NCBI GenBank assembly: GCA_016934825.1
Contig: JAFGSB010000018.1
Coordinates: forward strand, 62,001-126,000
Length of the DNA: 64,000 nt
Source of the DNA: Candidatus Zhuqueibacterota bacterium
Lineage (GTDB): Bacteria; Zhuqueibacterota; Zhuqueibacteria; Residuimicrobiales; Krinioviventaceae
Direction of reading: 5' to 3'
Under the pieces are notes generated by a model. The model was not told the origin of the DNA and did no database searches. It worked only from the letters and a program-made list of their open reading frames with translations. How positions within the stretch are numbered: the first letter of the stretch is position 1; each line of letters starts with the position of its first letter. Made by a program: the position numbers and the translations under genes. Positions 53,718-64,000 of this stretch are shown here, piece by piece.

Positions 53718-54689
53718 TTACTCTTCTTTTTGATCCTTAAAATATTCAATTACCCGTCGCAGTATTTCATCTAATTGAATTTCTGGACGATAGCCGATGA
53801 GTTTTGCCGCTTTTGACAAATCCGGTTTCCGGACCCTCATATCTTCGAAACCCTCTTCATACGCTTCATCATATGGAATAAAGACAATTTCCGATGACGA
53901 TTGTGTCATGGAAACAATTTTTTCCGCGAGATCTTTTATGGTAATACCCCGATCATTACCAATATTAACAACCTGACCTAAGGCATTTGGCGATGCCATC
54001 AGCTTAATTGCGGCGCCAACGACATCATCAACAAAAGTAAAACAGCGGAACTGGTTTCCGTCGCCATAAACGGTGATGGGTTTACCGGCCAATGCCTGTT
54101 GAACAAACCTGGGGATAACCATGCCATATCGGCCTGTTTGTCTGGGACCGACCGTATTAAATAAACGCATAATTACCGATTCAAGATTTTTTTCTTTAAA
54201 ATATGCGAGCGCCAGGAATTCATCAATCGCTTTGGAACTGGAGTAGCTCCAGCGGCTTTTGGTGGTTGGCCCAAGTACCCGGTCGGCGTCTTCCTTGAAC
54301 GGTACGGCTTCACTTTTTCCATAAATTTCAGATGTGGACGTAATCAACACCTTTCGTAAATAACGATTGGCAAGCCGTAATACAACATCGGTGCCCAAAA
54401 TATTCCGTTCAATGGTAGCCACAGGACTTTTAACGATTAATTCCACACCAACTGCCGCGGCAAGATGATATATCTCATCGCATTCGCTAACGAGTCTGTC
54501 CATGACTGTTTCATTCAAGACTGTTTCTATAACCAGGCTGAAATCGGGATTACTCCTGAGATGGTTTACATTTTCAAGTCTTCCAGTTGAAAGATCATCA
54601 ATTACACATACCTTGTTTCCGCGTTTTAGCAATTCTTCCGCCAAATGCGAACCGATAAAACCAGCGCCTCCCGTAATTAGAGCTCTCAT
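53718..54689 (-). CDS. NAD-dependent sugar-nucleotide epimerase/dehydratase (extended SDR)
   Basis: A 323-residue extended SDR with the N-terminal Rossmann motif ITGGAGFIGSHLAEEL, the catalytic YSSSKAIDE (YxxxK), TSTSEIYG upstream of it, and RLFNTVGPRQTGRYGMVIPRF. The layout resembles UDP-glucose 4-epimerases and UDP-glucuronate decarboxylases; RLFNTVGPRQ favours the latter group but does not decide. GGAGG precedes the ATG. It is the last gene of a polysaccharide cluster. Confidence 0.92.
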   Translation of the reverse strand: MRALITGGAGFIGSHLAEELLKRGNKVCVIDDLSTGRLENVNHLRSNPDFSLVIETVLNETVMDRLVSECDEIYHLAAAVGVELIVKSPVATIERNILGTDVVLRLANRYLRKVLITSTSEIYGKSEAVPFKEDADRVLGPTTKSRWSYSSSKAIDEFLALAYFKEKNLESVIMRLFNTVGPRQTGRYGMVIPRFVQQALAGKPITVYGDGNQFRCFTFVDDVVGAAIKLMASPNALGQVVNIGNDRGITIKDLAEKIVSMTQSSSEIVFIPYDEAYEEGFEDMRVRKPDLSKAAKLIGYRPEIQLDEILRRVIEYFKDQKEE

Positions 54690-54731: not shown

Positions 54732-55835
54732 TTATTTACCATTATTTGTGTTTCTTGTACCGATCATAATCAAAAATGTAATTAAAACGTAAATGATAAC
54801 TGCCTGGATTAGTATAACAATACTACCCGCAATGGACACATATGGCAGAAGGGTTGCCGTCATTCCCACACAAAAGCAAACAAGATAAATGAAAATAACG
54901 ACGGAGCGGTGTCCCATTCCCAGGTCAAGCAGACGATGGGAAAAATGGCATTTATCGCCAAGGAACAGGGAGCGGCCTTCCCGCCACCTGATAAACATGA
55001 CAGAAAATGTATCGTAAAGCGGGATACTCAAAATCAATAAAGGCATTACAATCGGAATAAGTGAAGCGCTTGACTGCACGACATAAGATCCCATAACCGT
55101 CAATGTTCCGAACATATACCCCAGAAACAGGCTGCCGCTGTCTCCCATGAACAGTTTTGACGGATAAAAATTGAAAATTAAAAATCCCAGGGATGCACCG
55201 GCAAGCGCCGCCAGCATTAAAGCAAAAAAGATCTGACCCTGTAACACCGCAACAACAAACAATATCAACGAAGCAATAATAGAAACCCCTGCCGTTAAGC
55301 CGTCCAGGTTGTCCAACAGGTTAAATCCGTTTGTAATTCCAACGATCCAGATACTGGTGATGATAATATCCGGTATCTGACCGGGCATAAAATGAGTACG
55401 AATACCATACACCGCAACAAAAGCTGCAATCACAAACTGGGCGATAAACTTGGGCTGATAAGAAATTTTTTCTTTAAAAATATCATCGATAATCCCCAAC
55501 AGATGAATTAAAAATCCTCCGCCTAATATGATGATCAGTTTGGGCAAAACAGAATGCAGTTGGGGAAAAACTTTAACAACAGATTGTAAATGGGTCTGGA
55601 CAAAGTTGGAATAAAATAATAAATAAAAACCGACAATATTTGCCACAACCGTAATAAAAAAACCGGAAAAAATACCGATCCCGCCCATCAGCGGTTTGGG
55701 GGTTTTATGTACTTTGCGTTCACCGGGATTGTCCACGATTCCCCATTTAAGGGCGAATTTTTTAATAAACGGAATAATGGCAACGGACAACAGTAACGCC
55801 TCACAAAAAACAACAAGATAAAGTATATTTCTCAA
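54732..55835 (-). CDS. undecaprenyl-phosphate GlcNAc-1-phosphate transferase-like (WecA/TagO/MraY family)
   Basis: A 367-residue polytopic protein that would transfer a sugar 1-phosphate to undecaprenyl phosphate. Diagnostic motifs are KVHKTPKPLMGG, GIIDDIF, NGFNLLDNLDGLTAG, FMGDSGSLFLGY and HFSHRLLDLGMGHR. The last, with its His cluster, matches the WecA/TagO subgroup. The start codon is TTG at 55835 with a GGAGAA site. It probably initiates the repeat unit that the GT4 enzyme extends and the flippase exports. Confidence 0.92.
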   Translation of the reverse strand: MRNILYLVVFCEALLLSVAIIPFIKKFALKWGIVDNPGERKVHKTPKPLMGGIGIFSGFFITVVANIVGFYLLFYSNFVQTHLQSVVKVFPQLHSVLPKLIIILGGGFLIHLLGIIDDIFKEKISYQPKFIAQFVIAAFVAVYGIRTHFMPGQIPDIIITSIWIVGITNGFNLLDNLDGLTAGVSIIASLILFVVAVLQGQIFFALMLAALAGASLGFLIFNFYPSKLFMGDSGSLFLGYMFGTLTVMGSYVVQSSASLIPIVMPLLILSIPLYDTFSVMFIRWREGRSLFLGDKCHFSHRLLDLGMGHRSVVIFIYLVCFCVGMTATLLPYVSIAGSIVILIQAVIIYVLITFLIMIGTRNTNNGK

Positions 55836-55858: not shown

Positions 55859-57076
55859 TTATTTGTTCGTTAAATCAATTAATACCTGTTCCAGTTCCAG
55901 CGCTTTTTGCCGCCTTGAATAATTCTGCTCCACATACTTCCGGCCCGCTTTTCCCATCTGCCGGCGCAATGCGGGATTATTTTGCAGCTTTTGTATTGCC
56001 GACATCATTTGTTCACTATTTTCAGGCTCGACAAAAATTCCGGCTTTCGCGTCCTCAAGTACGGTCCGGGCCTCGCCGTCAACGCTTAAAATAACGGGCC
56101 GCTCGCAGGCCATGACATCGAACATTTTGGACGGCAGGGCGCCAAGGAACAACCTGTTCTTTTTCAGCGGAACAATACAGCAATCCGCCGCTGAAATATA
56201 GTCCGGGATTATTTCCCGGGGCACCTCATCCAATAAAGTAAGATTATTTAACGACTTTTCCTGCTTAATTTTATGTACGGTAGATTTAACCGGACCTTCG
56301 CCGATGAATACAAAATGCACATTTTTGTTGGATTTCATAGTATTAACAACATCGCAAAGCTGTTCCATTCCCTGTGCGATACCGATTATCCCGGCGTACA
56401 ATACGACAAACTTTTCATTCAAACCCAGCCGTGTTTTTATTGCCTGTCCCTTATTTTCAAAAAGGTCGGTATTTGTGCCGTTCAAAACAACCTTTACCTT
56501 GTGCTTATATCCCCGATCCTCAAGCTTCTGCCTGATACCTCCGGTAACCGCAATAATGGCGTCCGCTTTTCTATAGTAATAATTTTCCAGCTTTTCCGCC
56601 CATTTAATAAAGCGCCGATTGGAAAGTTCACCCAGTTCCACCGCCGATTCCGGCCACAGGTCCCTCACTTCAAACACGAATTTTGTATTTTTTAACCGGC
56701 TTAGCCACAATCCGCTCACACCGACAAAAAAAGGGGGAGATGTCGCGTACACCACATCGTATGAACCTTTTAAAAATGAACCCGTCGCGGCGCAAGTCAA
56801 CATGTAACTGAGATAAAATCCCATTCGGGTATAAAAATTTTTTTCCGGTCTGGCATAAACCCAGGAACGGTAAACGTGAATTCCTTTTAACAGTTCGTGT
56901 TCGATAAATCTGTTTTTATATTCCGGAGGGATTATTCCTTTGGGGTGGTTGGGAAATTCCGTCAGTACCGTCACAAGATGACCTCGCTTGACCAGGTTTG
57001 AAGCCATTTCAATCGCGCGGGTTTGCGTGGCGCCGACTTCCGGCGGAAAATATTGAGTAAGGTACAGTATTCTCAT
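55859..57076 (-). CDS. GT4 glycosyltransferase, WbuB-like
   Basis: Two-domain GT-B enzyme of about 405 residues. MRILYLTQYFPPEVGA opens the acceptor half; FEVRDLWPESAVELGEL and DAIIAVTGGIRQKL are WbuB marks. The donor half shows VFIGEGPVK and SAADCCIVPLKK. I start at the ATG at 57076; it overlaps the stop of the flippase gene as ATGA. The frame runs on upstream to 57148 within the flippase gene but lacks a ribosome site. WbuB-type enzymes add fucosamine- or GalNAc-like residues; the sugar here is not known. Confidence 0.92.
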   Translation of the reverse strand: MRILYLTQYFPPEVGATQTRAIEMASNLVKRGHLVTVLTEFPNHPKGIIPPEYKNRFIEHELLKGIHVYRSWVYARPEKNFYTRMGFYLSYMLTCAATGSFLKGSYDVVYATSPPFFVGVSGLWLSRLKNTKFVFEVRDLWPESAVELGELSNRRFIKWAEKLENYYYRKADAIIAVTGGIRQKLEDRGYKHKVKVVLNGTNTDLFENKGQAIKTRLGLNEKFVVLYAGIIGIAQGMEQLCDVVNTMKSNKNVHFVFIGEGPVKSTVHKIKQEKSLNNLTLLDEVPREIIPDYISAADCCIVPLKKNRLFLGALPSKMFDVMACERPVILSVDGEARTVLEDAKAGIFVEPENSEQMMSAIQKLQNNPALRRQMGKAGRKYVEQNYSRRQKALELEQVLIDLTNK

Positions 57077-58299
57077 TTCGCGATGATCCTTCCGCCGGTG
57101 CCAAAATAGTGAGTCGCCAATATAATACTGTAAATAATAAACGAACAACTGGTTGCAATGGACGAGCCGTTTATACCCAGCCGCGGGATCAGCAGAATAT
57201 TCAGGACTATATTAAAAATCAGGGCGACAAGCGGAGCAATCACGGTTACTCTTGGAAAACCGCGGCCCCATAACGCAAAATTTAATATTTTCGCACCCGA
57301 CATCATAACCGCACCGGGCAACAACCAGTAAAGCGCGGTTGCCGAAGCGGCAAAATCTTTTTTAAACAATAATATGATAATATTTTTACCCAAAAAAATG
57401 ACAAAAAGTGAAAATAAAGCACTGATAACCATAACAAAGAACATGACCTTGTTTGTCAGGGCTCTGTGTTTTTCGTTATTATCAGCCGATATTTTGGGGA
57501 ATATAACATTACCGGCGGTATTGGCCAGCTTTTGCAGCAATTCCGCCAAAAGTACGGCAATGGAATAAAGACCCGCGGCTCCTACACCCAAAAATAAATT
57601 GATTAAAATGATATCGATCCGGAACAGTAAAAAAAGTGAAATATGCGACACCATTGCCTTTGAACCGGCATTCCAGCTTTGCCGGGCGATGACCTGATCG
57701 GGATAAATTCCCTTTTCCTGCTTTATAAATATATAAAAAATGAAACCAAATGCAAGGCCTATGGCTAAAGTATAATTAAACATAACTTTAAACGGCGTAA
57801 CATTTGTTACGAATAATGTTACCAGGTTCGCGGCAAGGTACAGCACAAACGGAAAGGCCAGAAAAAAATTATACCGGTTATAATCCTGTTTACCCAGAAA
57901 AATAGCGATCATGCCACGTTCGGATATTAACAGGGGTACAACAATAAACGCAACCAGAACCAGAGAAAAAGATAATCCCGGAAAAGCAATGCTGATCAAT
58001 GGGTAACCGCTCAATCCCAGGAAAAGTAGAAAAATAGCGGTGATGACGGTAAATATCATAGAGTTGCCGAACAGCGCTTTTGTATTTTTAGCATCTCGGC
58101 TCGTCAGATAGGTATTTGCACGGGCCAATCCATCCCCGAATACAAGACTTAAAACGGAGACGATGGTCATTGTCAGTGAATACTGCCCTCGTCCTTCCAC
58201 ACCCAGGGCGCGGGTAATTATTATGCTGTTCACAAAACCGACAAATGTTACCACACCTTCTGCCAAAAAACTTGTGGAAAATATTCGTAATAATGTCAT
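57073..58299 (-). CDS. polysaccharide flippase (Wzx/MATE-like)
   Basis: A 408-residue polytopic protein with about 12 membrane segments and the N-terminal ALGVEGRGQYSL signature of Wzx-type oligosaccharide flippases. It would move lipid-linked repeat units across the inner membrane. It overlaps the GT4 gene by 4 bases. Together with the WecA-like and epimerase genes it makes a short exo- or O-polysaccharide operon; a polymerase is not visible in the window. Confidence 0.88.
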   Translation of the reverse strand: MTLLRIFSTSFLAEGVVTFVGFVNSIIITRALGVEGRGQYSLTMTIVSVLSLVFGDGLARANTYLTSRDAKNTKALFGNSMIFTVITAIFLLFLGLSGYPLISIAFPGLSFSLVLVAFIVVPLLISERGMIAIFLGKQDYNRYNFFLAFPFVLYLAANLVTLFVTNVTPFKVMFNYTLAIGLAFGFIFYIFIKQEKGIYPDQVIARQSWNAGSKAMVSHISLFLLFRIDIILINLFLGVGAAGLYSIAVLLAELLQKLANTAGNVIFPKISADNNEKHRALTNKVMFFVMVISALFSLFVIFLGKNIIILLFKKDFAASATALYWLLPGAVMMSGAKILNFALWGRGFPRVTVIAPLVALIFNIVLNILLIPRLGINGSSIATSCSFIIYSIILATHYFGTGGRIIAK

Positions 58300-58559: not shown

Positions 58560-61500
58560 TTAACGCATGACAATGATTTTACTCAATTGTTCTGCTTTTT
58601 CATCGCCGTTTGAGGCAAAAATTTTATACAAATAAACGCCGTTTGCCAGTTCATCCCCGTCTGCATCCCGGCCGTCCCAGGGGATCATATTAAATCCGGC
58701 GCTGACCCACCCGGAATCAATATCCTGTATTAATCTCCCCGCCACGGTATAAATCTTTATTCTAATTTGTGCGGGCTGGGATATTTCAAAAGTAAACTTT
58801 GTATCGCTTTTAAATGGATTGGGATAATTCAGTACATTGTCCAACTTTAATTCTTTAACAACCTGAAATTCCCCGCGGTATTCAACTGAATTGCCACTCG
58901 CATCCGCGGCAATTATATGCAGGGAATGGTCGCCCTCAGGTAATACAGGCGTGTATTCCAAAGCGCCCCGGACCCCTTCCTCTGACAGAGTTTTGAATTT
59001 AAGATTTGATGTCCCTCCCCCGTATGCGACACGTTTATCATCCAGGAACAGAGTGACATTCAGTGTGTCCTCAAACGATAGCGGACTGTTATCGTATAAC
59101 CTGGCCAGAATAAGCGGTTTATAAGAAATCATATCACCGTACAAAACCTCCTTGCCGTCAAATGTCACTCTGATTTCCGGTTTTATCGTATCCTTAAGTA
59201 CGTAAACAAAAGTAGAAATATTGTTATTAAAAGCGCTCAGTTCGGGTATTTTATCGTCAGGATCAAGCGAAATATATAACTGCCGCAGACCTGTCCTGCC
59301 TGCGGATGACCATTCCTGCCCGATTGTAATAAAACTGTCAACCGGTACGGATTGGGTAATATTTTTAACCGCGAATGTCCGCCTTCCCAGTGCCGCATCC
59401 GATTCCTGAAAAAGTATCTTTAAACTGTCCGCCGTTAATGTGACCGGGCCGATATTGTAAATATTGATACTCAAATTTACTGTTTCCCCGGTCAGGACCG
59501 AATCGGCGCTCTGAGAAAAAGTATCGAACCCAATAGCCGGATCCGGAACCGGGTCATATATCACCTGCAACCAGTCCAGCAGGGGAGTGAAATTGCCGTC
59601 AACGGTACGGAAATCAGTCAGCAGTGATATATAATGATATTTCTTTACGCTGATACCCGTCAAATCCACATAGGGATTCTTTAATCCCGTGAGCAATGTA
59701 TCAGCGAGACCGCCGTTAAAATGACCCAGCACACTGAAACTCAAATCGGTAGAATCAGGGATATCGGCGTGAAAAGAGAATTCCTTCCAGCCTGCGGCCG
59801 GACCGATTTTGGCAGCCAGCATGGTTCCCTGTTTCATAAAAAGAATTAAGGAATCCTCCAGGGATACAGTTCCCTCACCGGACAATTTGTGTGCTTCCGG
59901 CACGCTGCCCGGATCCGCGCCCTTGATTCCAATGATCGCCCAGGAGTCGCGGATGCCCACATTACGGCAAAAGTCACTGCCGATGGATTCAAGCGCCAAA
60001 TACCCGTTTTCGGTCATGCTCGCGCTGCCTTCGTCTTTAATAGCGCATAGGACAAAACTGCCGTCCGGCAGATTGTTTATATGCTCGGCCAACGCCTCGG
60101 AATTTTGGGGGTCGGCATACGTATCAAACGTATGGGTGAATAAAATTTCCCCGGTCGTTCCGCTTATCGCGGCAACATTGATCCCCCGTCCTACGATGAA
60201 CGGAGATTCCGAATTGATCAATATTCTGGCATAATTACCGTCATTATACCCGGCAGATTCCACATATAGTTTGATTTCCCGGTCATCCAGGCTCGCCTGA
60301 TTATTTATTATTTTTGTATCGACGAACTGATTTTTGGAGAACTGACTTTCAATTCCCTGACGCCACCCGTACATATTGGAACCGACAGCATAAAAAGATC
60401 CGATAACCCAGGCGACATCGGAAGTATCGGAAGAAATTTTACTGCGCCAAAAGTACAGGCCGGGATCGATAGGATGCGGTTTCCATTTGGTAATTAATAC
60501 CTGATTCTGCACAGGACCGGATGATTGTAACAGGGGGGTGTTAAAAGACCGGGATGTGTCTAACTGAAATTCCACAAAATAATTCAAGTTGGTCTTTTGC
60601 TGGGGATTCAAAACTTTTAAAACCACTTCACCGGCAGGACATATACTATTCGCAACCGGATAAACCGGTTGTATAAGATTTGAAATAACGTTGACCTGTG
60701 TTGACCGGGTATTATTGTTCTCATCAATTTCATCGATAAAATTGTCCGGGTCGACTACCGCCTCGATGTTAACCGGGCCCGCCATATCTTTCAGCTTCCA
60801 GTTAAAAAACAGGGAATCAATTAGTTTGACAGGCGGTAAACTTTTTATCGCATCTACCATGTTTTTGCCGTCTTGTAAATGTTCGGCAAAAACCTGAACA
60901 GATACACTGTCCCGGGGTACAAGCCCGAAATTTTGTATTTTGACATGAATCGACGCGACGGAATCCGCTTCACTCGGAACCTGGGGATCTACTCGTATAT
61001 CTGCCGGTTGAATCGTTAAATCCGGTTTTTCGGCCAGAGCCAGATCAACCGCCGGGTCGCCCATTAAATTATATTGCAATATCAAATTCCGTACGTGCTG
61101 GCCTGGTCCTAAATTGTTCCACAACCCGAATTTTGCCAATGTAATCGCGTCGCCCAAACGATGGACCGTATCCTGTAACGCCACCGAATATAATTCACGC
61201 AAATACTGGTAATCTTCATAAGTATAACCCCATCCGGAAGTACCCCAGAAGCCGATCGCCCCTTTATTGGATACCAGTAAAAAACGTTCCCCGAAACTGT
61301 CCTGGTTGGGTTCGGCAAACCGCCCGGTATGGCAGGTCATGCTGGTTATGAACGGAAATTTAAGGTCATTGGACAGAACGTCAATATCAGGATTATGAAA
61401 CATGAGGTCCCAGGTACTGCTTCCGGCATGGCCGATAAAATTACTCCACACCACACCGTTGTTTATTACATTCAGTATATCATCACGGTGTTCACCTTCG

Positions 61501-64000
61501 TTCAGGCCCTCGGTTTCTTTTTTTATCGATATATCTCTCCCGCCGACGGGCCCCGGATTGACAAAATCCTGCGCCAATAATTCGGACTGGTGATTAAAAA
61601 CAATCTGTTCATACTTATCAAATCCCCCGCTGATAAACATAAAATTCTTTTTCCACGCCCCGGAAGGTGTGCTTTCATAACTTATAATCTTATCAACAAT
61701 GACTTCGGCCTGGGCGGCGTTTTCGACTGGCAGCCGGCCTACACTCATTTCCGGCAATATATCCTCCGGACCGTCAAAACACACGAACCATGTGTCGCTG
61801 ACGGGATTCCCATAGGACGGCACAAAGTCATATTTATAAGCCGAGGATAAATTCTTTTTCGGGTCCCAGCTTGCGTCTCCGAATAACAACACATAAGCGG
61901 GCGCCGGCTTTTGCCAGCGCTGATAAGCGTTATACAAAAAATCACGAATGGCAGTCGGATCTGAAAGACCGTAATTAAATTCATTGAAAATGTCTTCAAC
62001 AAACACGATTATGGTTCGGAAATCATTGAAATCCCGTCGGTAAGCGGCAAGCCGCTCCGCCTGTTCTTTAAAAGCCGGGTGTGTAATGATGATATAATCA
62101 GCCCCATTTTGGCCTGAAAACAGGTCACCGGGTGTAACACGGGACAGCCGGGTGGGCATTTTCAAGCTGTCCTGCCCGAAAACAACAAAATTATTTCCCG
62201 TAAATTCCTCGGGGGTAAAAATCACTCCAAAAGAAGATGCCCCGGCCGGAAAAAACAAAGCCTGCTCTATCTGTACAGGGTCGGAACCGGATGGCGAAAG
62301 CGCTTCCGGCACACTGCCTTTTTCGGCCCCCTTGGTACCGATCATAGCCCAGGAATCCCTGAGCCCAAGATCACGTATTTTATCGCTGCCGAGGCTTTCC
62401 AGTGCGAGATATTGGGCTTCCCGGAGTAAATTGCTCCCTTCATCTTTTACAGCCGCTAAAACTATGGTGCTATCCGGTAATTTGCTGATAAAAGTTACCA
62501 GGCTGTCTGTCTGTTCGGATGACTCCCAGGTATCGAAAGCGGCCGTCTTTAACACCCGGCCGCTGTGCTGATCGATTGTGACGATATTGATTCCCCGGTG
62601 GCCATTATACAGATTCTGATTATTGATCCAAAAAGACGCATAGTTTCCATCAAAGATTCCGGCCGACATAACGCGGATATTCGCCAGCCAGCTTTTATCC
62701 GCTCCCCGGTGAATGATCTCCCTAAATTTATTCAAATCCCATATTCGGATCGTATCCATCGAAAATCCGTTAACAAAATAAGATTGTTCAATGCCGCCGT
62801 CCGCCGGTGCGAAACGCAGCCAGCCGTTCGCTGTTGTCAACCTCTTCTTATACACGAATTCAAACCAGTCCAGATAAAACTGGGAAATCTCCACATTGGT
62901 ATCATTCACGGACTGTATATCCATTTGGTTGCCGTATTCCTTAAAAAATGCCGCAGGTACCTCGGCAATCGCTATCAATTCCTCACGATCGTCAAAGTAG
63001 GAATCGAATATTAAATTATTATTGATATATAACCGGACATGGTGATCGTTTTCTTCATTCGAATAAGTGGTCCCCCGTAACCGAACACGCACATCAATCG
63101 AATCCCCCCCGCCAAAAAGGCCCGGCAGATCAAAAGGGAAATTATAAATAGTGCCGGAATAAAACGTCTTGGTCCAGACCCATCCTTCACCCGATGCCTG
63201 CTCCGTTTCATGTATATCCACATTGGTATCGCCGTGATAATATTCGCTGTCCTCTTCAAGATGCAGCGCACATGGGTAAAAATCGATTTTTTCATTTGTT
63301 ACGGATGAAGAAACACTTTTTACGTACCTTTTACCATCCTCGCCGCCCCATGTTAGCCAGTAGACATTCGTATCGCTGTAAGCATTAAAATAACTGCTGT
63401 CACCGGATAATCGGGATGCAAAAAAAATTATTTGATCTTCGGGATTCAAAACGCTGTCCTGCCCCCCGGTTATGTCACAGGCCTGTTCAATACCCCGGTT
63501 AAAAATTCTTATTTGCTCCGGATTGATAGCGTATATATTCAATCCAAGCTGCTGCAACATTCGGCCGGATATCTTATATACGCCCTCGTCAACGGTTAAA
63601 ATTTTTAAAAGTTCACGGCCCATATTAAATTCCCACCAGGGCCCGGTTTCCGCAGATGAAACATACGGCGCCACTGCGTGATTGAGCTTCCCGGCCACAT
63701 TTTTGTCCACAATCCGGTTGATTTTGTCTATCGAAACCTTTTTTATTGTTGAGCCGCTTCCGGTCAGTTGTACTTTGATATATCGCAAATACCGGATCGT
63801 ACCGGTAACCGGATTATATTGAACGGGATGAATGGTGATTTGGAAAAGCTGTCTGCCCTGAAACCCGCCGTTTTCGCCAGTCAGAAACCTTCCCGGGTAA
63901 AATTTATTTACGGAATAGACATCCGGGTCTTCTTTATAATACTCTTCAACCGATTGCCCTGACGGGTTAAACTGAGTTGTCGGAGCCGGACAAATCCGTC
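58560..64000 (-). CDS. giant C25 (gingipain-like) peptidase with two ILEI/GG domains and Por sorting tail; 5' end outside the window
   Basis: The frame stays open without a stop from 58560 to the window edge, so the N-terminus (signal and part of the propeptide) lies beyond 64000; a TTG at 63788 is internal. Counted from there: about 367-493 is a FAM3/ILEI-like GG domain (RGINIV, FDTW, LGLRDSWAMIGTKGA). About 560-917 is the C25 core with His787 (IGHAGSS) and Cys819 (MTCHTGRF). A CARDB domain follows, then a second ILEI domain (about 1167-1297: RGINVA, FDTY, VGIRDSWAIIGIKGAD) and a second CARDB. The end carries NYPNPFKSDTKF, the type IX sorting tail. It is an exported surface cysteine protease with probable sugar- or protein-binding modules. 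Confidence 0.88.
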   Translation of the reverse strand, partial: RICPAPTTQFNPSGQSVEEYYKEDPDVYSVNKFYPGRFLTGENGGFQGRQLFQITIHPVQYNPVTGTIRYLRYIKVQLTGSGSTIKKVSIDKINRIVDKNVAGKLNHAVAPYVSSAETGPWWEFNMGRELLKILTVDEGVYKISGRMLQQLGLNIYAINPEQIRIFNRGIEQACDITGGQDSVLNPEDQIIFFASRLSGDSSYFNAYSDTNVYWLTWGGEDGKRYVKSVSSSVTNEKIDFYPCALHLEEDSEYYHGDTNVDIHETEQASGEGWVWTKTFYSGTIYNFPFDLPGLFGGGDSIDVRVRLRGTTYSNEENDHHVRLYINNNLIFDSYFDDREELIAIAEVPAAFFKEYGNQMDIQSVNDTNVEISQFYLDWFEFVYKKRLTTANGWLRFAPADGGIEQSYFVNGFSMDTIRIWDLNKFREIIHRGADKSWLANIRVMSAGIFDGNYASFWINNQNLYNGHRGINIVTIDQHSGRVLKTAAFDTWESSEQTDSLVTFISKLPDSTIVLAAVKDEGSNLLREAQYLALESLGSDKIRDLGLRDSWAMIGTKGAEKGSVPEALSPSGSDPVQIEQALFFPAGASSFGVIFTPEEFTGNNFVVFGQDSLKMPTRLSRVTPGDLFSGQNGADYIIITHPAFKEQAERLAAYRRDFNDFRTIIVFVEDIFNEFNYGLSDPTAIRDFLYNAYQRWQKPAPAYVLLFGDASWDPKKNLSSAYKYDFVPSYGNPVSDTWFVCFDGPEDILPEMSVGRLPVENAAQAEVIVDKIISYESTPSGAWKKNFMFISGGFDKYEQIVFNHQSELLAQDFVNPGPVGGRDISIKKETEGLNEGEHRDDILNVINNGVVWSNFIGHAGSSTWDLMFHNPDIDVLSNDLKFPFITSMTCHTGRFAEPNQDSFGERFLLVSNKGAIGFWGTSGWGYTYEDYQYLRELYSVALQDTVHRLGDAITLAKFGLWNNLGPGQHVRNLILQYNLMGDPAVDLALAEKPDLTIQPADIRVDPQVPSEADSVASIHVKIQNFGLVPRDSVSVQVFAEHLQDGKNMVDAIKSLPPVKLIDSLFFNWKLKDMAGPVNIEAVVDPDNFIDEIDENNNTRSTQVNVISNLIQPVYPVANSICPAGEVVLKVLNPQQKTNLNYFVEFQLDTSRSFNTPLLQSSGPVQNQVLITKWKPHPIDPGLYFWRSKISSDTSDVAWVIGSFYAVGSNMYGWRQGIESQFSKNQFVDTKIINNQASLDDREIKLYVESAGYNDGNYARILINSESPFIVGRGINVAAISGTTGEILFTHTFDTYADPQNSEALAEHINNLPDGSFVLCAIKDEGSASMTENGYLALESIGSDFCRNVGIRDSWAIIGIKGADPGSVPEAHKLSGEGTVSLEDSLILFMKQGTMLAAKIGPAAGWKEFSFHADIPDSTDLSFSVLGHFNGGLADTLLTGLKNPYVDLTGISVKKYHYISLLTDFRTVDGNFTPLLDWLQVIYDPVPDPAIGFDTFSQSADSVLTGETVNLSINIYNIGPVTLTADSLKILFQESDAALGRRTFAVKNITQSVPVDSFITIGQEWSSAGRTGLRQLYISLDPDDKIPELSAFNNNISTFVYVLKDTIKPEIRVTFDGKEVLYGDMISYKPLILARLYDNSPLSFEDTLNVTLFLDDKRVAYGGGTSNLKFKTLSEEGVRGALEYTPVLPEGDHSLHIIAADASGNSVEYRGEFQVVKELKLDNVLNYPNPFKSDTKFTFEISQPAQIRIKIYTVAGRLIQDIDSGWVSAGFNMIPWDGRDADGDELANGVYLYKIFASNGDEKAEQLSKIIVMR

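Follow-up and report, generated by a model that had tools for sequence, protein, structure and literature searches.

A protein of 1919 amino acids from a bacterium of KSB1, an uncultured phylum, encoded at the edge of the window (the whole stretch of 64,000 nucleotides analysed here), carries a Peptidase_C25 core flanked by two ILEI domains, the fold known from FAM3 proteins and POMGnT1. Judged by its sequence, it is a PorU-like paralogue and a close relative of the NCBIfam family PorU2, although it is not filed as a member of that family. The domain-level finding is real and well supported, and it has in part already been named by NCBIfam; the link that ties a PorU paralogue to a glycan-binding fold and to polysaccharide operons is testable and was not met in the literature that was searched. 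We hypothesize, with a probability of a little under one half, that this protein is a second sortase-like enzyme of the type IX secretion system (T9SS) with built-in glycan-binding domains, one that joins or trims cargo at the polysaccharide made by the neighbouring operon.

Domain layout and the ILEI fold

The open reading frame lies on the minus strand at window positions 58560-64319 (contig C29:120560-126319) and crosses the window edge, with its ATG (window-equivalent 64319; contig C29:126319) 319 bases past that edge. An earlier note, made from the letters of the window, had given the gene as 58560-64000; the reading frame is as described there, but its start lies beyond the window. From N to C terminus, the protein comprises a signal peptide (a signal-peptide-like start, MKNIRLLLFVLLLTLGF, encoded outside the window), a C25 propeptide, a PorU-like N-terminal region, ILEI-1, the C25 core, CARDB, ILEI-2 and a T9SS sorting tail (Table 1). 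Pfam finds the C25 propeptide, Peptidase_C25, two ILEI domains (179 bits together), two CARDB domains and FlgD_ig, and the protein belongs to peptidase family C25 by its score (296 bits), its fold and its invariant Cys/His dyad.

Table 1. Features of the ILEI-C25-ILEI gene and of its neighbours, in window positions.
Feature	Position	Strand	Basis
ILEI-C25-ILEI protein gene, 1919 aa	58560..64000 inside window	-	ORF, start outside window
C25 propeptide region (PF08126), residues 109-188	63756..63995	-	Pfam
PorU/PorU2-like N-terminal region, about residues 231-532	62724..63629	-	PorU2 model, runs on into C25 core without ILEI-1
ILEI-1 (PF15711), between PorU-like N-terminal region and C25 core; Arg575, Asp626, Arg654	62325..62597	-	Pfam, alignment and model
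Peptidase_C25 core (PF01364)	61041..62096	-	Pfam, 296 bits
Catalytic His964 codon (GHAGS)	61428..61430	-	Invariant in 83/83 C25 rows
Catalytic Cys996 codon (MTCHTG)	61332..61334	-	Invariant in 83/83 C25 rows
CARDB Ig-like domain, C-terminal to core	60702..61028	-	Pfam
ILEI-2 (PF15711); Arg1378, Asp1429, Arg1457	59916..60188	-	Pfam and alignment
C-terminal stretch, colinear with final 224 residues of P. gingivalis PorU (6za2)	58566..59201	-	Sequence match
T9SS type A sorting domain (TIGR04183; also FlgD_ig)	58602..58814	-	30.2 bits, cut-off 23
Wzx-like polysaccharide flippase (PF01943)	57073..58299	-	Neighbour
GT4 glycosyltransferase	55859..57148	-	In one BLAST cluster with Pfam-typed GT4 genes
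Second WecA/MraY-like sugar-1-phosphate transferase	54732..55835	-	Neighbour
NAD-dependent sugar epimerase/dehydratase	53718..54689	-	Neighbour

The earlier note had recognized two ILEI-like segments (about 62690-62310 and 60290-59900) on either side of a C25 core with its His and Cys in place, and this reading holds: Pfam places an ILEI domain inside each segment, the core with His964 and Cys996 lies between them, and the pattern RGIN..FDT..GSD..R..G.RDSWA.IG.KGA is found by alignment in both copies. Against PF15711 (cut-off 27 bits), ILEI-1 scores 97.6 bits (E 2e-27) and ILEI-2 92.3 bits (E 1e-25). An AlphaFold model of ILEI-1, for which the input alignment consisted of 67 bacterial ILEI sequences, has a mean pLDDT of 97 and the beta-beta-alpha fold of FAM3 and POMGnT1; all 21 of its PDB matches with E < 0.001 are FAM3A/B/C, POMGnT1 or TMEM2, as the earlier note had expected, and the next match has E = 0.47. 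The E-values, this confident model with its family-pure matches and the retention of the double arrangement across the phylum together rule out a chance match. A structural model of 941 residues that includes both ILEI copies has a pLDDT of 88 and a pTM of 0.58; at this pTM the placement of domains is unreliable, and the model therefore does not fix the position of the ILEI domains relative to the active site. A recent internal duplication is not supported as the origin of the pair, the N and C copies being mostly separate across families in an ILEI tree that is poorly resolved.

What might these domains bind? In POMGnT1, Arg129, Asp179 and Arg207 contact beta-GlcNAc (PMC9802357). The same Arg/Asp/Arg set is kept in FAM3 proteins and in a nematode FAM3-like domain; FAM3C, FAM3A and the nematode domain bound GlcNAc, and a sister domain without two of the three contact residues did not (PMC9802357). 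By sequence alignment, the three POMGnT1 residues correspond, in that order, to the Arg/Asp/Arg residues of ILEI-1 and ILEI-2 listed in Table 1, such that the triad is intact in both copies. Among relatives, the whole triad is present in 26/27 N copies, 21/27 C copies and 8/10 single copies, and the three sugar-site columns fall within the 14 most conserved of about 131 ILEI columns (p about 0.001). The earlier note had proposed that the domains target glycans. Glycan binding is plausible, given that the three contact residues are kept and that polysaccharide genes are linked to this one, and on this comparison the most likely ligand of the ILEI domains is beta-linked GlcNAc or a sugar like it. 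It is improbable that ILEI is instead a plain structural or protein-binding module that contacts cargo or T9SS partners and no sugar, with the operon linkage reflecting envelope co-regulation. The triad is indeed missing from some copies, chiefly C copies, and secreted signalling is another known role of FAM3 proteins, but the conservation of the sugar-site columns argues against such a module, as do the two proteins without an intact site (L096 and L097), which are also without a glycan operon; these two come from a single genus and so count as one event.

A PorU-like paralogue in genomes with a canonical PorU

The best sequence match of the protein in the PDB is PorU of Porphyromonas gingivalis (6za2; E 8e-40, in two colinear stretches), compared with 4e-6 for Kgp, and the C25 core alone scores 98 bits with PorU, 34 with Kgp and 25 with RgpB. 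By Foldseek on the modelled C25 fold, PorU ranks slightly below RgpB and Kgp. We also built a tree from 83 C25 cores by a quick method, with a midpoint root and with P. gingivalis PorU on a long branch; in it, ILEI proteins from KSB1 and from Bacteroidota group into a single clade (SH-aLRT 100), apart from the canonical PorU clade (SH-aLRT 96), into which P. gingivalis PorU falls. Sequence, tree and family models thus reject a gingipain identity, and 'gingipain-like', the description first given to this protein, should be replaced by one that points to PorU and toward NCBIfam PorU2.

The protein is not the canonical PorU, either. It passes the PorU model NF033707 by a narrow margin (428, cut-off 420); however, a full PorU is encoded elsewhere in the genome, and the two fall apart in the tree. 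That canonical PorU (893 bits) is among seven more C25 matches in six other open reading frames, which also include a second at 673 bits; canonical PorU is about 1340 aa long here. Five Bacteroidota genomes tested also hold a canonical PorU near 1000 bits, so the ILEI-C25 enzyme and canonical PorU coexist there as well.

The relationship to PorU2 (NF052324, cut-off 450) is closer. Among ILEI proteins, the KSB1 relative L098, which has a single ILEI, scores 475, followed by L100 (409), L129 (403), L092 (372) and the protein studied here (367); of the other C25 proteins in its genome, two large ones score 272 and 257 and the canonical PorU 178. With ILEI-1 removed, the model aligns in one unbroken stretch (26-879 of 879), and ILEI-1 is therefore an insertion in a PorU2-like frame. 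This insertion is not the sole cause of the score below the cut-off, since its removal lifts 367 only to 373. When the PorU2 and ILEI searches of the Bacteroidota class of L129 are read together, 28/31 of the matches that reach about 276 bits with the PorU2 model fall in ILEI-bearing reading frames. The His and Cys of the core are never lost in 42 ILEI-C25 proteins, L096 and L097 included.

ILEI occurs in 54/82 KSB1 genomes, mostly as a pair of copies that lie about 2.4 kb from each other within a single reading frame of about 1900 aa; several KSB1 families have one copy, C-terminal to the core. Named relatives come chiefly from KSB1 and Bacteroidota metagenome bins, and in one Bacteroidota class ILEI is found in 87/149 genomes, mostly in reading frames of 1600-2000 aa. 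Since ILEI proteins of like length are so common in that class, and since the existing PorU2 model already spans this clade's N-terminal and C25 part, 'undescribed surface system', as the earlier note had put it, is too strong. Literature searches, which covered the literature in part only, returned no paper with the term PorU2 and none pairing ILEI with C25, and a search on the ILEI domain in bacteria found nothing.

ILEI is also put to use in other arrangements. A Bacteroidota relative of 2387 aa (L134:4532-11695) has two ILEI domains that both follow the C25 core, which puts its second ILEI at a different place. A second type of ILEI protein, of about 970 aa with intact Arg/Asp/Arg, is found in three KSB1 genomes (L102:4296-7178, L103:4260-7136 and L104:6634-9585); of the three, the L102 protein was scanned with Pfam, and in it lamin-tail and CotH kinase domains are combined with a T9SS sorting tail. 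An Omnitrophota reading frame of 3347 aa (L131:5243-15286) has one ILEI and a weak Peptidase_C39 match, with no C25.

Linkage to T9SS and to polysaccharide genes

Type IX export, assumed from the start, is borne out by the type A sorting domain (30.2 bits, cut-off 23) and by SprA, PorU and PorZ in the genome; SprA is matched in 82/82 KSB1 genomes, and this genome encodes at least 150 sorting tails. PorZ scores 287 bits (cut-off 260), and the idea that ILEI stands in for a missing PorZ is accordingly rejected. Another PorU-like C25 paralogue of this genome (1613 aa; G000:C13:104933-116418, locus L160) has SprA about 6 kb away, with like closeness in other KSB1 genomes.

The ILEI-C25 gene sits in a polysaccharide operon. 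In transcription order on a single strand, its contig reads GT-C (PMT_2), GT2, GT4, GT4, WecA, the ILEI-C25 gene, Wzx, GT4, a second WecA and an epimerase. The two WecA/MraY-like transferases (window 54732-55835 and contig C29:126395-127390) hint at two glycans or two initiating sugars. Across the phylum, at least two glycan genes lie within 4.5 kb of the ILEI-C25 gene at 28/37 KSB1 loci, compared with 0/20 canonical PorU loci and 0/12 loci of other C25 paralogues. The Fisher p of 1e-8 against the canonical PorU controls is overstated, because common descent ties the loci to one another and because the glycan-gene queries were drawn mostly from ILEI loci, which favours matches there. The ILEI-C25 gene is co-directional with the preceding gene in 34/36 loci, with a median gap of 50 bases, and at most double-ILEI loci it directly follows wecA. 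In three Bacteroidota relatives, the preceding genes are WecG with GT2, GT4 or capsule-synthesis genes (the L134 WecG was identified by phmmer).

There are exceptions. L098 has an intact ILEI, yet is without glycan neighbours; in L096 and L097, whose sole ILEI is without all three sugar residues, no glycan operon adjoins the gene. At the latter two loci (L096:12117-14683 and L097:471-3022), the usual WecA and glycosyltransferases give way to a DegT sugar aminotransferase together with a 402-aa protein; the 402-aa protein beside the L096 gene has no Pfam match at E 1e-5.

Such a setting could also suit an accessory of polysaccharide assembly, in which the two ILEI domains hold, space or check the polysaccharide and the C25 core processes only itself or one partner. 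The position inside the operon, directly after wecA, fits this idea, as does the observation that one ILEI copy is sometimes degenerate with the other kept. We nevertheless consider an accessory of this kind very unlikely, since the catalytic residues are kept in 42/42 ILEI-C25 proteins, even in the two that are without the sugar triad.

Proposed role and relation to known systems

PorU cuts the sorting tail from cargo of the T9SS and couples the C terminus thus exposed to an amine that the linking sugar of A-LPS carries; the A-LPS is brought by PorZ (PMC10202324; PMC7468200). With canonical PorU and PorZ both present, the cell described here already has one attachment route. As the genes of relatives usually lie beside surface-polysaccharide genes, the ILEI-C25 enzyme probably acts where secreted proteins meet surface polysaccharide. 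Its signal peptide and sorting tail mark the protein for export through Sec and then through the T9SS, and it carries an active-type Cys/His core on a PorU2-like frame. We propose that the two flanking ILEI domains would bind a sugar, most likely beta-linked GlcNAc or one like it, in the surface polysaccharide that WecA initiates in the surrounding operon, and that the enzyme would cleave the sorting tail from a subset of T9SS cargo and join that cargo to the bound glycan. In other words, its own ILEI domains may play for this enzyme the part that PorZ plays for PorU. The intact dyad, the sorting tail, the ILEI domains and the linkage to WecA/WecG operons fit an additional attachment enzyme, one that serves a second polysaccharide. 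Transpeptidation (rather than plain cleavage), the sugar bound and the cargo used are what we infer from this fit, and so is the step from being bound near a glycan to joining protein to it.

Several observations weigh against this reading, the existing PorU/PorZ route among them. The protein falls under the PorU2 cut-off, L098 has an intact ILEI with no adjoining glycan operon, and the operon has no recognizable Vim/Wbp-type gene for a linking sugar that bears an amine, a VimA-like model matching weakly and elsewhere. Additionally, gingipains share the fold, and given the slight Foldseek preference for RgpB and Kgp, sequence alone cannot show transpeptidation. The chief rival is a surface endopeptidase without transpeptidation: anchored by ILEI to the polysaccharide layer of its own cell, a genuine C25 protease would trim surface proteins, bring them to maturity or break down protein from outside. 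By sequence, this rival is inseparable from the sortase reading. Carbohydrate-binding domains often anchor enzymes to surfaces, and the invariant dyad, a fold equally close to RgpB and Kgp and the protein's own sorting tail would all suit a protease. We regard this rival as rather unlikely, because the sequence is much closer to PorU than to gingipains, the protein is the closest to the PorU2 sortase model among the large non-canonical C25 proteins of its genome, and a general protease would have no obvious need for linkage to WecA/WecG operons in two phyla.

A broader proposal may be entertained, although we put it forward tentatively: KSB1 and one Bacteroidota class might possess a second T9SS route of protein-to-polysaccharide conjugation, apart from PorU/PorZ/A-LPS, in which ILEI domains serve enzymes of the PorU2 type as inbuilt presenters of a WecA- or WecG-dependent surface polysaccharide, to which cargo is attached. 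In this clade a PorU-like paralogue, a polysaccharide operon and a fold that binds glycans through known contact residues come together, and sugar and enzyme are thus both open to point-mutation tests. The FAM3/POMGnT1 fold, in turn, gains a concrete bacterial setting with an enzyme partner.

How does this protein compare with known systems? NCBIfam PorU2, described as a 'putative T9SS sortase', is the nearest: without ILEI-1, the N-terminal region, the C25 core and the next domain match end to end, the single-ILEI KSB1 relative passes the cut-off, and the strongest matches in one Bacteroidota class bear ILEI. The protein itself differs in scoring below the cut-off and in having an extra ILEI before the core, and the model ends ahead of the C-terminal ILEI. 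With PorU (NF033707; 6za2), it shares the C25 core, the N-terminal region and the C-terminal Ig and sorting domain; however, the ILEI-C25 proteins are a separate clade, and the shorter canonical PorU of these genomes is encoded outside glycan operons. The gingipains RgpB and Kgp have the same C25 fold and Cys/His dyad, but their sequence match is much weaker and their substrate pocket may differ. The stem of POMGnT1, FAM3A/B/C and TMEM2 share the ILEI fold (TM mostly 0.8-0.87 by query length, 25-32% identity) and the same Arg/Asp/Arg site, whereas the KSB1 ILEI domains are bacterial, stand in duplicate on a C25 enzyme and have a sugar site predicted by alignment. Lastly, the POMGnT1-stem fold is found in a bacterial virus, in the Tal adhesion proteins of streptococcal phages (CBM_1), with the Arg and Asp kept (PMC9437275); there it is part of a phage adhesion device, whereas in KSB1 it is part of a C25 enzyme.
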